DNA of 36,709 bases from Deltaproteobacteria bacterium (GTDB lineage Bacteria > Desulfobacterota > WTBG01 > CAIYCZ01 > CAIRTM01): contig JAJRXD010000160.1 in assembly GCA_024276465.1 (NCBI GenBank), forward strand, positions 1-36,709. Reading direction: 5' to 3'. Position 1 is the stretch's first letter; every line of letters starts with the position of its first letter. The position numbers and the translations under genes are program-made. The notes under the pieces are model-generated. The model was not told where the DNA came from. It did not search any database and saw nothing but the letters and a program-made list of their open reading frames with translations. Positions 3 through 33,830 of this stretch are shown in pieces.

Positions 3-161
3 CTAATAAAAAAATTAAAAAAATCTGGATGTGACCTGATCAGACATGGTGGAAATCACGACTGGTACCAGAATCCGGAAACAAAAGAATGTCAACCAGT
101 TCCACGCCATAGAGAAATTGTCGAATCACTGGCTAAACATATTATAAAAAAGTTGAGCTAA
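3..161 (+). CDS. hicA: HicA-family mRNA interferase toxin, 5' end cut by window edge
   Basis: The frame open from base 3 to the TAA at 159-161 encodes 52 residues ending in the HicA (YcfA-like, dsRBD-fold) signature. Visible motifs are SGCDLIRHGGNHDWY, with the usual catalytic His in GGNHD, followed by PVPRHREI. HicA toxins cleave mRNA and are neutralised by HicB. The family is about 60 residues, so probably fewer than ten N-terminal codons lie outside the window. A partner hicB would have to be upstream of base 1, because the next HicB-like frame is on the other strand and belongs to a different HicA. About 250 non-coding bases follow, holding only the IS3 scrap listed next. Confidence 0.72.
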   Translation, partial: LIKKLKKSGCDLIRHGGNHDWYQNPETKECQPVPRHREIVESLAKHIIKKLS

Positions 162-408: not shown

Positions 409-645
409 TTATTGGCTTAATTTGGCGCTTGCAATCCGGTTAAGGCTCACACCGGATTCAGCAGCCTGAATAGCTATTTTCCGATGAACATCCGGAGGAA
501 TACGGACCATAAACTTGCCGCTATAAGACCTGCAGGCAATTGGCTCTGGAACTTTTTCCCCGGTATTATTCATGTCTCTAACGACATCAGCAACCAATTT
601 TCGGATACCTTTCAAAGCTGCTTCCGGGGTAGGTGCAAGCCAACT
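409..645 (-). pseudogene. hicB: HicB antitoxin, N-terminally truncated by a repeat array
   Basis: The minus-strand frame gives LSWLAPTPEAALKGIRKLV, then a linker, YSGKFMVRIPPDVHRKIAIQ and AAESGVSLNRIASAKLSQ. This is the C-terminal half of a HicB antitoxin: the end of the degraded-RNase-H-like domain, followed by the Arc/ribbon-helix-helix DNA-binding part. The usual first 40 or so residues are missing. The homologous frame stops at a TGA inside the repeat that begins at 647. A TTG at 615 could start a 68-residue product, but no ribosome-binding site supports it. The matching HicA lies just beyond the repeat array (859-1062, same strand), so this was probably a hicA-hicB operon split in two. 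Confidence 0.7.
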
Positions 646-646
646 T

Positions 647-902
647 AGTCAAGTTGAAATAGAGGAACATGTCAGGTTTTGCAGTGGTCAATTTCGGTAT
701 GCTTTAAAACTCACTCAAGAGTCAAACGGAGATTTGACCCCCTGCCCAGACCCTGACCCCCTGCCCAGACCCAGATGACCCCCTGCCCAGACCAAGAGTC
801 AAACGGAGATTTGACCCCCTGCCCAGAGTGGTCAATTTCGGTATGCTTTAAAACTCACTCAAGAGTCAAACGGAGATTTGACCCCCTGCCCAGAGACTTT
901 AA
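647..902. repeat. Hairpin-repeat array (GTCAAA-CGGAGA-TTTGAC)
   Basis: The array contains three copies of the 18-base palindrome GTCAAACGGAGATTTGAC (721-738, 798-815, 865-882). Each is followed by CCCCCTGCCCAGA, and extra short CCCTGCCCAGA units lie between. A longer unit starting AGTCAAGTTGAAATAGAGG spans from 647. Part of it, from GTGGTCAATTTCGG, recurs at about 829. The whole unit recurs at 1091. The stems could form RNA or DNA hairpins in the style of REP/BIME elements. No transposase is present. The array separates hicA from hicB and truncates both. Confidence 0.8.
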
Positions 903-1062
903 TTCTTGGATCACCCTGCCATGGGGAGACATAAACCCGATGGCTGCTCGAACTGTTATGTGGTTTCCCAAAATATTTTTCGCATACTTTAGATAATTCA
1001 GAGAATCTGACATCTCTGGGATTTCTTTTCATTTGGAGTAAAATTTCATCAATTCCTGCCAT
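859..1062 (-). pseudogene. hicA: HicA-type toxin, C-terminus replaced by repeat
   Basis: The minus-strand frame starts at an ATG (MAGIDEILLQMKRNP) and continues VRFSELSKVCEKYFG and SSSHRVYVSPWQGDPRIKVS. This matches the HicA subtype usually annotated as toxin HicA, with the SSHRVY catalytic-His segment. After about residue 57 the remaining codons (GQGVKSPFDS, stop) are a translation of the GTCAAA hairpin repeat. The normal tail of roughly 20-30 residues is therefore lost. A possible promoter lies upstream on the minus strand (TTGACT near 1095-1090, TA-rich -10 near 1070). The toxin is probably inactive, since its C-terminus is gone and its antitoxin is also broken. Confidence 0.68.
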
Positions 1063-1090
1063 GCCTATATAGTAGCACTATTGATATCAT

Positions 1091-1232
1091 AGTCAAGTTG
1101 AAATAGAGGAACATGTCAGGTTTTGCAGTGGTCAATTTCGGTATGCTTTAAAACTCACTCAAGAGTCAAACGGAGATTTGACCCCCTGCCCAGACCAAGA
1201 GTCAAACGGAGATTTGACCCCCTGCCCAGAGA
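1091..1232. repeat. Second copy of the hairpin-repeat unit
   Basis: From AGTCAAGTTGAAATAGAGG at 1091 the sequence repeats the unit seen from 647. It carries two more GTCAAACGGAGATTTGAC palindromes at 1165-1182 and 1201-1218, each followed by CCCCCTGCCCAGA. With the first array it brackets the truncated hicA. The bases from 1233 to the rmlC stop at 1288 show nothing recognisable. Confidence 0.8.
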
Positions 1233-1287
1233 CTTTAGACCCCCCCATATTATTGCCTTTTGTTTGAAGTTAAGTTAAGAACAGTTG

Positions 1288-2855: not shown

Positions 2856-5240
2856 TTAATTTTCAGACTGGCTTGAAGAAAACTTCCTGAGCAGCTGGTT
2901 TTTGTCTGAGCTGCCAATGAGCAGGTCACTGCAGTCATAGTATCTGTCAACAAGAAATCGGCCTGCAGCTGTTTTTAATAAAAACCGGTCTCTCCATGCC
3001 CGCATGTTTTTCAGCACAGTTTGATTTTCAACAAGAGTTGATACAATGCAGGGTCTTCCACCTTCTCCGGTTGTAAAGCTCCAGGTTGGCCCCTGGGTTG
3101 CAGTGCCCCCGCTGTTTTTTGCTGTGATTTTCCAGTAGTAAACAGTGGATGGGTTCATTTCCTCCGGGGTGTAGAACATGCTGTCTGCATTTTCAGCAAC
3201 AAGAGGTGGCTCTTCTTCAGTTCCAAAATAGATATCAAAGGTCAGGCTGACTGTATCAGCATTATCTATGCTCCACTGAAGAGTAGCTGTCAGAGGAATA
3301 CCAGTTGCATTATCATCAGGATAAGGGTTGCCAGGAATTCCAGGGGGATCAATGTTCTGGCCTGCTGTAGTAGTTGTTGTGGTTTCTCCAGGTGCTGTAG
3401 TAGTATTGTTGTCAGGTATTGTTGAAGTTGTTGAAACATCGTCTGTGTCAGGAGTATATGCCAGAATTATTCCTTTCCCGCCCACAAAAAAGATATCACC
3501 TTCACCGCCTCCCCAGATATCACGCCAGAAGACTGAATCATTGCCAATGTCAGTTTTTTCCCAGGTGCTGTTATTATATTCAAGGATTACACCATTGCCG
3601 CCGGCAAATATTTTTCCGGAATCAGCTCCGTAAACAGTGTTTAAATGCGCAGATACCCCGCTGTTTTGCGCTGTCCATGAGCTGCCGTCATAGTGCAGTA
3701 TCGTGCCTGATCTTCCAACAGCAAACACATTACTGCTGTCAGATCCCCATACTGAGCGCAGGTTTTCCGCTGTTCCGCTGTCCATCAGGCCCCACTCTGA
3801 TCCGTCATAGTGAAGTATTGTTCCTGAATTTCCCACAGCAAAAAAATTATTTTCAGTATCTCCCCACACCCCCTGAAGATTTTTGTCAGTCACGCTCTGC
3901 ACAGCTTTCCATGCAGAACCGTTGTAGTAAAGTATTGTTCCTGAGTCACCAACTGCAAACATGATAATGTCCTGGGCAGTGTTGCTGAATGATATTCCCC
4001 AGACAGAATTGAGGTTTTCATCAGTATTGCTGTCAGCCTCGGTCCAGGTCCCGTCAGTTGCATTGAAAGAATAAATTGTGCCTTCCTCACCTACAGCATA
4101 AACTGAGTTCAGGCGATACACGGTATTTCCCCATGCATCATAAAGCGCAACATCAACAGGAAGCTTATACAGATTTGCAAGCCAGCCATCTGTTGGCTCG
4201 CACACTGTGGCTCCGTCACAGTCATGCCTGTACAGAACCGTCTGGTTTTCTCCCAGCACAAAGAGATCCCTGCCGTAGCGTGATGACTCAAAACCTGTCA
4301 CAGAATAAAGCAGAGAATCTGTTATGAGGGTCATTGCTTCCCATGAGCTGCTGTTCCTCCTCAGGATAACCCCCTCATTGCTGCATATGAAAATATTATC
4401 TGGGGAGTCTCCCCATATCCCGTAATTAGCCGTTGTGTTTCCGGTAACTGCCAAAGACCAGGATGTTCCGTCATAGGCTGCAATTCTTCCTGAGCTGCCA
4501 ACAGCATACAATGTCCCGTCGTCCAGCCCCAGGATGTCATGGTAATCACGGGTGTCGGTTAGTTCAGAACTCCATGTGCCCCCACTGTAGCGGAGAATTG
4601 TCCCTGACTGTCCTGCAGCATAAACTGCTGATGATGCAGCATAAACAGCATTCAGGTCTGTTGTAACGCCGTAGCTCAGAGCAGACCACCCTGTTCCGTC
4701 ATAATGAAGAATCACTCCCCTGTCTCCAACAGCATAAACATCAGATGAAGATCTCCCGCAAACAGCATTCAGGTCTGCTGTAATGCCGGAGGTCAGAGCA
4801 GACCATCCTGATCCGTCATAGTGAAGAATTGTCCCGCTGTCTCCGACAGCAAAAATATCATCGCCAGAGCTGCCCCATATTCCGTTCAGGTTCTCGTCTG
4901 TGCCTGATGAAACAGATGTCCACTGTGCAGAGTCATTGTGAAGGATTAAACCGCTGTTTCCAACTGCATAAACACTGCTCCACAGATTTCCCCATACAGC
5001 GTTCAGTGCTTCTGATGTTCCTGAATTTTGAGCTGACCATGAGCTTCCGTCATAGTGCAGTATTGTGCCGTTTTTCCCAACAGCAAAAACATAGCTTGAG
5101 GAAGATCCCCAGATACCTGAGAGATCTTCTACTGTGGGGGATGGGCTCTGCCATGTCCATTGCCCGCAATGCCCGTCTCTTTCATGAAGGGTAAATATGC
5201 TTAGAATTGCAAATGCTAAAAAAGTTGTTTTGAGTTTCAT
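2856..5240 (-). CDS. Secreted double beta-propeller protein with Thr-rich linker and Fn3-like domain
   Basis: The 794-residue product starts with a signal peptide (MKLKTTFLAFAILSIFTLHE...). I count about 14 blades of the type VWGSSSSNVFAVGxxGTILHYDG between residues 40 and 590, as expected for two seven-bladed propellers. A Thr/Ser-rich linker (TTSTIP, TTTAPG, TTTTTTAG) follows near residue 605. Next is a fibronectin-III-like domain (PPGIPGNPYPDD to TWSFTTGEGG) near 630-720. The tail, about 65 residues (NMRAWRDRFLLKTAAGRFLV...), resembles the region after CFIATAAYGS in exported deltaproteobacterial proteins, though CFIATAAYGS itself is degenerate (CIVSTLVEN). No catalytic function is known. 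A surface or extracellular binding role is likely. The gap to rmlA (2741-2855) shows no other gene. Confidence 0.88.
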   Translation of the reverse strand: MKLKTTFLAFAILSIFTLHERDGHCGQWTWQSPSPTVEDLSGIWGSSSSYVFAVGKNGTILHYDGSSWSAQNSGTSEALNAVWGNLWSSVYAVGNSGLILHNDSAQWTSVSSGTDENLNGIWGSSGDDIFAVGDSGTILHYDGSGWSALTSGITADLNAVCGRSSSDVYAVGDRGVILHYDGTGWSALSYGVTTDLNAVYAASSAVYAAGQSGTILRYSGGTWSSELTDTRDYHDILGLDDGTLYAVGSSGRIAAYDGTSWSLAVTGNTTANYGIWGDSPDNIFICSNEGVILRRNSSSWEAMTLITDSLLYSVTGFESSRYGRDLFVLGENQTVLYRHDCDGATVCEPTDGWLANLYKLPVDVALYDAWGNTVYRLNSVYAVGEEGTIYSFNATDGTWTEADSNTDENLNSVWGISFSNTAQDIIMFAVGDSGTILYYNGSAWKAVQSVTDKNLQGVWGDTENNFFAVGNSGTILHYDGSEWGLMDSGTAENLRSVWGSDSSNVFAVGRSGTILHYDGSSWTAQNSGVSAHLNTVYGADSGKIFAGGNGVILEYNNSTWEKTDIGNDSVFWRDIWGGGEGDIFFVGGKGIILAYTPDTDDVSTTSTIPDNNTTTAPGETTTTTTAGQNIDPPGIPGNPYPDDNATGIPLTATLQWSIDNADTVSLTFDIYFGTEEEPPLVAENADSMFYTPEEMNPSTVYYWKITAKNSGGTATQGPTWSFTTGEGGRPCIVSTLVENQTVLKNMRAWRDRFLLKTAAGRFLVDRYYDCSDLLIGSSDKNQLLRKFSSSQSEN

Positions 5241-9989: not shown

Positions 9990-11414
9990 ATGGAACCAGA
10001 AAAAAAATTCAAGGTCTGCCTGATGGGAGCATCCATGGGAACCGGCAACAAAGGGGTCTCAGCGCTTGCATCTTCTCTTGTAAAACTGATAAAAAAAAAC
10101 AAACCTGGTGCGTTTGTATCATTTTTTACAGGCAACCGTATATCTGATCCACAGGAAGTGATGCTGGCTTCTGGCACTCTGAAAATTGATGTGGTTAACC
10201 ACAGGCTTTCCCCAAAAGCAAAACCATCAGAGCATCTTTTTCTGATATTTTTTCTTGCCTGCATTCACAGGCTGATCCCCCTGAAAGGTCTCAGAAAAAA
10301 AATAACTGATTCAAACAGATTTTTGGGACAGATGCATCAGTGTGATTTTGCAGGTGACATATTCGGAGGTGACAGCTTCAGTGACATATATGGTTTACAG
10401 AGGCTTCTGTTTTCTTCTCTGACCCCTGTTATTGCCCTGCTTCTTGGTAAAAAACTTGTGCTGTTTCCCCAGACTTACGGACCATATAAATCAACAGCCG
10501 GAAAATTTATTGCCACTTATATTATAAGCCACTCTTCAGCCATTTTTTCAAGAGACAGGGACAGCATTATAACGATAGAGGATTTAACAGGAGATAAATT
10601 TAAACAGCTTAATGTGCTGTTCTGCCCTGATGTTGCGTTCATGCTGGATTCAATAATGCCGCACAATCCTGATATACAGCCCCCTGTTGATATTACCGAT
10701 AAATCAGCCCACCCCCTTATCGGCTTTAACATAAACGGTCTCATGTATAACGGAGGATACACGCGCTCAAACATGTTCGGTCTGAAGATAGATTTCAGAA
10801 GCTTTGCAAAAAAGCTTCTGAAAACCCTGCTTGCAGAAACAGATGCGCGGATTCTTCTTGTTCCGCACACATTCGGCCCCCCCGGCAATATCAACAGCGA
10901 CCCTGATGCTTCAAGGGATGTTCTTAAATCATTGAATGAAGCTGAAAAAAACCGTGTCTGCATCATGAGCCGTGAATATAACCAGTCTGAAATAAAAGGC
11001 ATTATAGGAAACTGCGATTTTTTTATCGGGTCAAGGATGCACTCCTGCATAGCTGCTCTTTCCCAGTCAATACCCACTGTTGGAGTTGCATACAGCAAAA
11101 AGTTTATCGGGGTTTTTGATTCAATTGGCTCTGGCGACAGTGTTGTGGATGCCCGAAAGGAAAATGAAAACACAATAACAGAAAAGATTCTTGACTGCTA
11201 TAAAAACCGTGAACAGATCAGACCCATTATAAAAAAGCAGGTTGCTGAGGCACAGAAATTAATAATGGAAACGTTTAATAAATTATTAAAAAATAAAATT
11301 ATTCACCACGAAGAGCACGAAGGAAAAAAAGAAAAAGCATTAACCACGAAGGACACGAAGGAAGAAGAAAAGAAAAATCTAACCACGAAGAGCACGAAGA
11401 AAAATGGAATTTGA
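9990..11414 (+). CDS. Polysaccharide pyruvyl transferase family protein with repeat-encoded tail
   Basis: Family members (CsaB/WcaK/EpsI type) transfer pyruvate from phosphoenolpyruvate to a sugar as a ketal, adding negative charge to the polymer. The core is residues 1-435. It shows VCLMGASMGTGNKGVSAL at the N-terminus, DIFGGDSFSDIYG near 120, LFPQTYGPYKST near 160, and the C-terminal signature SRMHSCIAALSQSIPTVG near 345. The last 35-40 residues (IIHHEEHEGKKEK..., LTTKDTKEEEKKN, LTTKSTKKNGI) are a translation of three CACGAAG repeat arrays. The original stop codon seems to have been displaced by repeat insertion. The frame ends inside the first codons of the next gene (11-base overlap). The FrhB-like gene downstream is a frequent neighbour of pyruvyl transferases. 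Confidence 0.9.
   Translation: MEPEKKFKVCLMGASMGTGNKGVSALASSLVKLIKKNKPGAFVSFFTGNRISDPQEVMLASGTLKIDVVNHRLSPKAKPSEHLFLIFFLACIHRLIPLKGLRKKITDSNRFLGQMHQCDFAGDIFGGDSFSDIYGLQRLLFSSLTPVIALLLGKKLVLFPQTYGPYKSTAGKFIATYIISHSSAIFSRDRDSIITIEDLTGDKFKQLNVLFCPDVAFMLDSIMPHNPDIQPPVDITDKSAHPLIGFNINGLMYNGGYTRSNMFGLKIDFRSFAKKLLKTLLAETDARILLVPHTFGPPGNINSDPDASRDVLKSLNEAEKNRVCIMSREYNQSEIKGIIGNCDFFIGSRMHSCIAALSQSIPTVGVAYSKKFIGVFDSIGSGDSVVDARKENENTITEKILDCYKNREQIRPIIKKQVAEAQKLIMETFNKLLKNKIIHHEEHEGKKEKALTTKDTKEEEKKNLTTKSTKKNGI
11304..11399. repeat. CACGAAG arrays, left end of the GxxExxY unit
   Basis: Three short arrays of the 9-base unit CACGAAGNN lie at 11304-11322, 11343-11361 and 11381-11399, separated by A/G-rich spacers. 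They are translated as the tail of the pyruvyl transferase. The last array ends four bases before the ATG of the GxxExxY gene. They are inverted relative to the array at 11789-11804. Confidence 0.9.
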
Positions 11415-16531: not shown

Positions 16532-16735
16532 CTATCTTTGTTGCGTTGTTACAGGTTTGACACAACAGTAGCCTGTCCTGATTTACCGGGACAATGCCAG
16601 GCAGTGCATGTTTTTCATATTACCACGAAGAGCACGAAGAACACGAAGAAAAAGAATATTAACCGCAGACTTAACATGTCGAAGATCCTCATTGGATATC
16701 TGGACAATGCCAGGCAGTGCATGTTTTTCATATTA

Positions 16736-17015
16736 CCATCCCGACAGACGTGGATAAACTCCGAGCACGAAGAAAAAGAATATTAACCGCAGACACATCC
16801 AGGAAAATTAATTATTACAAATATCCGTCGAAGATCCTCGTAAAGACAGGGATGAACGCAGGTTTTTTTATATTACCATCCCGACAGACGTGGATAAACT
16901 CCGAGCACGAAGAAAAAGAATATTAACCGCAGACACACGCAGAAAAATTAATTATTACAAATATCCGTCGAATATCCTCGTAAAGACAGGGATGAACGCA
17001 GGTTTTTTTATATTA
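16736..17015. repeat. 140-bp tandem duplication plus shared fragments
   Basis: Two adjacent 140-base copies begin at CCATCCCGACAGACGTGG (16736 and 16876). Both run through GAGCACGAAGAAAAAGAATA, TTAACCGCAGACACA, AATTAATTATTACAAATATC and GATGAACGCAGGTTTTTTTA, with only scattered differences. A shorter duplicated stretch, ACAATGCCAGGCAGTGCATG, occurs just upstream (16591 and 16705). Parts recur in inverted orientation near 20955 and 23757. The gap 16357-17007 holds no gene. Confidence 0.88.
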
Positions 17016-17196
17016 CAAGAACACGAAGAGCACGAAGGGTTATAAAAGGATGCTGTAATTTGAATTTAATTGCTTTTAAAGAGAGTTCATGGGCGAGACA
17101 TTGCTCGTAAGTTGATTCAAGCAAACCCGGCCCAAGATGCCTGTGGACTTCAATTGCACAGCCAATAACTCTGTTTGATAAATCATCAAATTCCAT
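17008..17196 (-). pseudogene. Internally deleted GxxExxY gene
   Basis: Residues 1-51 (MEFDDLSNRVIGCAIEVHRH..., with the motif G-L-L-E-S-T-Y at 24-30) are nearly identical to the intact copy at 11404-11775. After KLQHPF the frame passes directly into translated CACGAAG repeat (ITLRALRVLVI). The deletion removes the whole nuclease-like core (Asp67, Glu77, Lys79). Both flanking inverted arrays remain: CTTCGTG x3 before the start (17202-17226) and CACGAAG x2 after the break (17022-17037). It is therefore a deletion derivative with intact ends. Confidence 0.85.
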
Positions 17197-33387: not shown

Positions 33388-33425
33388 AACTGTTTTTTAT
33401 CCCGATATTCATCGGGATTGATTCT

Positions 33426-33830
33426 CATGACAGGACAGGTCGTCCTGTTATGATGTCTGCGTCAGTCTGCGTGCGTCTGCGGTTCCAAAAGAGTTTCTGT
33501 TTTTAAACATGAGATTGCCACAGCCTTCGGCTTCGCAATGACAGATTGTGTCCTGTTATTCATCGAAATTGCTCCTCATGACAGGACAGGTCGTCCTGTT
33601 ATGATGTCTGCGTCAGTCTGCGTGCGTCTGCGGTTCCAAAAGAGTTTCTGTTTTTAAACATGAGATTGCCACAGCCTTCGGCTTTACAATAACAGATTGT
33701 GCCCTGTTATTCATCGAAATTGCTCCTCATGACAGGACAGGTCGTCCTGTTATGATGTCTGCGTCAGTCTGTCCCGTTATACAACGAGGATCTTCGACGG
33801 TTCCAAAAGAGTTTCTGTTTTTAAACATGA
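33426..33830. repeat. Three tandem copies of a 151-bp unit
   Basis: Copies start at CATGACAGGACAGGTCGTCC at 33426, 33577 and 33728, exactly 151 bases apart. Each contains the palindrome AGGACAGGTCGTCCTGT, ATGATGTCTGCGTCAGTCTG, TTCCAAAAGAGTTTCTGTTT and CATGAGATTGCC. The third copy has its middle replaced by TCCCGTTATACAACGAGGAT and CTTCGACGG, a piece of the 140-bp family, and stops before the second half. Near-identity of copies 1 and 2 suggests recent duplication. No gene is seen in 33388-33850. Confidence 0.92.

Follow-up and report, generated by a model that had tools for sequence, protein, structure and literature searches.

Sequence comparison shows that the hairpin repeat that disrupts a hicAB toxin-antitoxin operon in this Deltaproteobacteria genome forms the ends of a Y1 (HUH) transposase gene (contig C27) and is present in addition as scattered copies. 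It likewise shows that tandem duplications at the ends of such transposase genes stop, on their outer side, some 10-14 nt beyond the terminal GAC/GTC, with inner borders that vary. The window analysed here (36,709 nt) is the whole of contig C136 in a 4.1-Mb draft genome of 181 contigs (95% complete). The hairpin, GTCAAACGGAGATTTGAC, occurs in it as five identical copies in two clusters, as the initial annotation had noticed, and the features of the region are these:

409-648, minus strand: hicB remnant, the C-terminal part with PF05534; about 30 N-terminal residues are gone
646-901, plus strand: array 1, 256 nt, apparently copied from the sequence upstream of hicA and duplicated internally; it replaces 172 nt of hicAB
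721-738, plus strand: hairpin copy 1
754-769, plus strand: junction unit TGACCCCCTGCCCAGA without the hairpin, in array 1
776-791, plus strand: second TGACCCCCTGCCCAGA junction unit without the hairpin, in array 1
798-815, plus strand: hairpin copy 2
865-882, plus strand: hairpin copy 3
901-1062, minus strand: hicA remnant, 54 codons of homology; the C-terminal residues of relatives (about 32) are gone
1069-1096, minus strand: hicA promoter TTGACT-16-TACTAT, resembling that of relatives; array 2 has its left border at the -35 box (1091-1096)
1090-1237, plus strand: array 2, a 148-nt unit upstream of hicA with two hairpins, adjoining the hicA promoter
1165-1182, plus strand: hairpin copy 4
1201-1218, plus strand: hairpin copy 5

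The initial annotation described a hicAB operon whose partners lose the HicA C-terminus and the HicB N-terminus at the array borders, with a second array upstream of hicA, and the coordinates above bear this out. The hicB remnant matches Pfam PF05534 (1.6e-15), and in alignment with the HicB proteins of relatives its homology begins at LSWLA. The hicA reading frame continues into array 1 as far as a stop at 859-861. A Pfam search with the hicA remnant gave no match, and a search of 297 genomes of the phylum (E 1e-6 or better) found HicA in 29 of them, the own genome included, with 42-68% identity to the remnant in the 28 others. HicB lies beside HicA on the same strand in all 29 loci of these 28 relatives, which bears out that the two halves are one hicAB pair. 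The HicA C-terminus at one locus (L098) deviates from those of the other relatives, perhaps by a frame change.

Uninterrupted operons in relatives, which had been proposed as a check, were indeed found, and they define what is missing. We measured the junction as the distance between the hicA codon that follows DPR[VI] and the hicB L codon, which was possible in 28 of the 29 loci (the motif missed L094). The distance is 172 nt in 22 of these 28 and 173, 175, 175, 180, 180 and 203 nt in the others; in the window it is 252 nt, all of it array. Compared with the 172 nt of most relatives, the window thus lacks about 32 HicA residues and 30 HicB residues, and array 1 takes their place. By this comparison, array 1 has replaced part of the operon, which is neither a simple insertion nor the mere split originally described, even though both partners are indeed cut at the array. 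In gene order, promoter and domains the locus matches the intact HicAB type II toxin-antitoxin pairs of relatives, but both partners are cut short and, with 172 nt missing, it does not encode a full-length toxin and antitoxin. HicA and HicB are presumably both dead, and the wrecked pair taken alone is an ordinary pseudogene event. A second hic locus adjoins it: positions 3-161 (plus strand) encode the C-terminal part of another HicA (PF07927, 6.5e-11), ended by the contig edge. In a relative (G017, contig C134, locus L081), an ORF beside the hicAB pair fuses the beginning of HicA to that of HicB (MANVEDILARMREEPMVLKND...), which would fit loss of the middle part of a duplicated pair.

All five hairpins are arranged head-to-tail, with orientation scored by their flanks, and have CAAGA 5' of the stem. 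The identical 3' sequence noted initially, CCCCTGCCCAGA, follows directly in 5 of 5 copies, although it amounts to four C past the hairpin's own final C and not to five. Folded as single-stranded DNA, the hairpin has a 6-bp stem at -3.4 kcal/mol (z -2.2), and 8 of 200 shuffled sequences fold equally well or better. The window gave nothing above the gathering score in Rfam. The two arrays have 107 nt in common at 100% identity and share both borders (TAG...TTTA); their internal order differs. Elsewhere in the window are three more tandem arrays (11301-11404, 16724-17016 and 33406-33771, with periods of 38, 140 and 151 nt), and a perfect 13-nt inverted repeat, TATACCGGAAAAC (366-378 and 1321-1333), encloses the hicAB and array region with 942 nt between its arms.

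The shared borders, together with the scatter of the hairpin through the genome (20 sites for the 19-mer at up to 3 mismatches, compared with 4 for a reversed control pattern), would fit a mobile element that had transposed into hicAB and removed 172 nt. The initial annotation had suggested a REP-like element. A genome search with 1085-1250, however, found matches elsewhere only to the hairpin region, with none to the remaining array sequence, and the left border of array 2 is a hicA -35 box that looks native. The TTGAxx-16/17-TA promoter form occurs in 21 of 25 upstream regions, the own one included (5 of 30 loci yielded no upstream region); the match at L084 is probably spurious, and nearly all the remaining promoters read TTGACA-16/17-TACTAT. 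Array 1, beside hicB from position 646 onward, opens with the same bases as this -35 box. Because the native box recurs there, the simplest interpretation is that array 1 was copied from the sequence upstream of hicA. For the same reason array 1 as a mobile unit with its own ends carries little weight, and transposition of the array into hicAB appears improbable. At its junctions, array 1 has TAG in common with hicB and TTA in common with hicA, which slightly favours annealing on little homology; it meets hicA at +16 to +19, past the usual outer offset described below.

The annotation had further suggested that a transposase acting on the repeat lies elsewhere, and the genome search located such a gene among 16 Y1_Tnp matches, two of them in one gene and several partial:

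contig C27, 2926-3903, minus strand: transposase gene, 326 aa, Y1_Tnp and Bac_DnaA_C

The protein scores 49.6 bits against Y1_Tnp (cut-off 23; 5.3e-13) and 38.2 bits against Bac_DnaA_C (cut-off 31.5; 1.5e-9). It has HYH at residues 60-62 and Tyr119, presumably the catalytic tyrosine of the family. Against NCBIfam REP_Tyr_transpos (NF047646) it reaches 72.2 bits, below the curated cut-off of 80, and a PDB sequence search returned two DnaA sequences and nothing else. Inverted copies of the window hairpin flank the gene at 2922-2940 (minus) and 3933-3951 (plus), and its final codons (...KSQTEI-stop) sit inside one of them. On the 9.6 kb of C27, six hairpin copies or variants (near 2922, 3933, 4072, 5183, 6020 and 6831) surround the gene. 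Contig C64 carries a second gene flanked on either side by a variant of this end, again with its stop in the hairpin. In another genome (G051), a protein with 46% identity has the ends CGTCAAACGTAGATTTGACCCC with the stop in the loop; these ends and the solo copies seen there share the same CGTAGA loop. End and enzyme change together between the two genomes.

In its domains and ends, the C27 transposase is of the TIRYT / TnpAREP subclass 2.1 kind. In the accessible parts of the two papers, TIRtrons or TIRYT (Di Nocera 2013, PMC3733652) mostly correspond to TnpAREP subclass 2.1 (Quentin 2018, PMC6006769), and most, though not all, of the published cases have GGGGWSAS in the inverted repeat. C27 resembles them in its Y1 transposase with a Bac_DnaA_C C-terminus, in inverted repeats around the gene and in solo repeats in the genome; its repeat comes close to GGGGWSAS, agreeing at 7 of 8 positions in GGGGTCAA. 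It differs in that its repeat contains a clear hairpin and the stop codon of the gene, whereas no REP-like sequence was found near subclass 2.1 genes according to the available part of Quentin 2018 (PMC6006769). The original description of the element as REP-like stands for the hairpin, but the unpaired GTAG tag is absent and TIRYT / TnpAREP subclass 2.1 terminal repeats fit better.

Homologues of the transposase occur at E 1e-30 or better in 124 of 395 genomes; in a crude motif count over the 130 genes of the survey below, partial ones included, 82 had an HxH-type motif and 76 had YI-x-x-NP. The element DNA itself was present in 4 of 98 relatives searched, the own genome included. An exact 20-mer scan of the GTDB set gave five stretches, in MAGs titled Deltaproteobacteria (2), Desulfosudis oleivorans (2) and Pseudomonadota (1), and a related transposase was absent from all five at E 1e-3. 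The own genome also holds many Y1 transposase genes with differing terminal repeats side by side (L019-L034), several of them with duplicated ends.

The direct repeats in the window arrays lie 19 to 144 nt apart and extend 4 to 56 nt inward of the terminal GAC, and all of them end 12-15 nt outside it. We surveyed 133 loci, representing 130 distinct genes, and kept the 182 ends (104 genes) for which an inverted counterpart matched. Tandem duplications ran across 27 of these 182 ends (24 genes), compared with 0 of 185 other GACCCC/GTCCCC sites in the same loci. Under a different criterion, an earlier test had found duplications at 11 of 68 ends, 108 of 7853 random positions and 0 of 1090 CCCC sites. 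The outer border lay 7-17 nt outside the terminal GAC/GTC (median 10; mean offset 10.9 ± 2.4 nt), a range that follows recoding of one locus (L202) from 39 to 13, since three copies stand there. Some of the counted duplications are of low complexity (L105, L123 and L215 here, and L279 in the second subfamily described below). The outer offset was independent of unit length (rho 0.03, p 0.89), while the inner extent followed it (rho 0.77).

Detection required a match of 6 nt or more beyond the end, a demand that excludes smaller offsets and sets no upper limit. A scan that dropped this demand placed 21 of 41 outer borders at +10 to +14 and 4 at +5 to +9, with none below +5. On contigs other than C136, the window type of hairpin, either solo or at a gene end, was examined at 31 sites: 7 were duplicated, with offsets of 10-14, and 24 were without duplication. 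Three dispersed copies (C179:5750, C179:8980 and C115:31015) have a common 3' flank exactly to +12 and 5' homology of differing length. Most other scattered copies have only CC(C) in common after GAC, so that joint movement of 12 nt is unlikely to be a general rule. The 155 of 182 ends and 24 of 31 hairpins without a duplication also count against a nick at a fixed border, as does the junction of array 1 with hicA past the usual offset. No constant dinucleotide was seen at the outer border on inspection by eye, a further point against it.

The main rival is plain replication slippage or template switching at short homologies around the hairpin, without an active transposase, with array 1 as a patch from array 2 at a 172-nt deletion. 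The short matches at the array 1 junctions and the folding of the window hairpin are both in keeping with this, as is the finding that copies abut or overlap by 1-3 nt in 17 of 27 duplications (9 others have filler or gaps, and one an overlap of 8). Yet ends that lack a 5-bp stem (19 of 137 duplicated, offsets 7-14) have their outer border at the same distance as ends with one (8 of 45, offsets 9-17), which makes the end, rather than the hairpin, the point of reference. Moreover, for the 22 duplications whose units have 12 nt or more, 20,000 random placements of the offset within the unit never gave so narrow a spread. Enzyme-free slippage alone does not account for the ends without a palindrome, and we consider it a serious possibility, though on balance a doubtful one. 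An artefact of short-read assembly might be suspected in a draft of so many contigs in which the window is a contig to itself; arrays of the same logic in G051, duplications at 24 transposase genes and the differing internal order of the two window arrays make it very improbable.

The survey was repeated with the same pipeline on a second subfamily, the homologues of another transposase of the own genome (C125), which had matches in 54 of 297 genomes. A few own-genome members had helped to form the idea of a border, and the repeat rests mostly on new genes: 70 loci were sampled and 3 dropped as seen before, leaving 67 genes, with 59 ends in 35 genes. Duplications were present at 17 of the 59 ends (14 genes) and absent from 42, with a median offset of 12. 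Fourteen of the 17 offsets fell at 9-15; the rest, 19, 21 and 21, were left uncorrected; at two of these, short units occur more than twice. Offset and unit length were related at rho -0.33 (p 0.20), and the inner extent at rho 0.78. Only 1 of 112 control sites was duplicated, and this site is a GTGTCCCCGGAATT repeat in its own right. The scan with the looser demand placed 8 of 23 outer borders at +10 to +14 and one inside the end; like the three large offsets and the 42 ends without duplication, this speaks against a fixed border.

From these borders we infer a nick about 11 nt outside the end, followed by slipped re-copying. Y1 enzymes leave a free 3' end at the nick. The transposase would nick one strand some 11 nt 3' of its end; the 3' terminus released there would slip back, anneal with little homology and be re-extended. 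Each round would repeat the stretch between the annealing point and the nick and always end at the nick, which would give a variable inner and a fixed outer border. In the window, the sequence shows a hairpin copy upstream of hicA multiplied head-to-tail along with its flank, and an apparent copy of this cluster, hicA -35 box included, in place of the missing 172 nt. Array 1 would derive from one long-range slip, from just beyond array 2 (+16 to +19) into hicA, after which the DNA separating hicB from the copied array would have been deleted at the common TAG; two template switches would serve equally. That nicking by the transposase and slipped re-copying explain both the window arrays and the duplicated ends is, in our estimate, an evenly balanced proposition.

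Set against known systems, the window repeat is like the GTAG REPs and REPINs with their RAYTs in combining palindromic repeats with a cognate Y1 enzyme, as far as the available parts of PMC2817692 and PMC3116915 describe them, and tandem REP clusters that include flanking DNA are already described in the accessible parts of PMC3116915 and PMC3733652. It differs from GTAG REPs in lacking the tag and in its number, about 20 copies rather than hundreds and below a threshold of >100 per genome, and from a REPIN in that its hairpins stand head-to-tail and not as two REPs in inverted orientation. According to the available part of PMC8266576, CT or CA is the cleavage site of TnpAREP in groups 2 and 3, whereas the outer border here has, by eye, no constant dinucleotide. 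With IS200/IS605 elements such as IS608 the C27 type shares HUH Y1 chemistry, and the IS608 right-end cut presumably lies about 10 nt outside the hairpin; the C27-type ends differ in being inverted repeats whose copies have a variable inner border. Our search of the literature, mostly outside subscription journals and partly limited to accessible text, found no report that duplications share a fixed outer border or that subclass 2.1 has a REP-like hairpin.

In the words of the accessible part of PMC8266576, the mechanism by which REP-type repeats spread remains to be elucidated. Tentatively, and with doubts that slightly outweigh our confidence, we suggest that genomes hold a readable map of nick sites. 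The Y1 enzymes of TIRYT / subclass 2.1 and of the second subfamily would place their nick some 10-14 nt beyond the terminal repeat. Repeated re-extension of the 3' end released there would yield one-ended copies whose outer border is fixed and whose inner border varies. Repeats would thereby grow and spread by copying, unlike the cut-and-paste of IS200/IS605 through a single-strand circle, and in the window this process would have erased the toxin-antitoxin junction. The analysis names a likely substrate for one subclass 2.1 enzyme, gives a position-specific prediction of its cleavage, and outlines a route by which the growth of a repeat may destroy a toxin-antitoxin pair.
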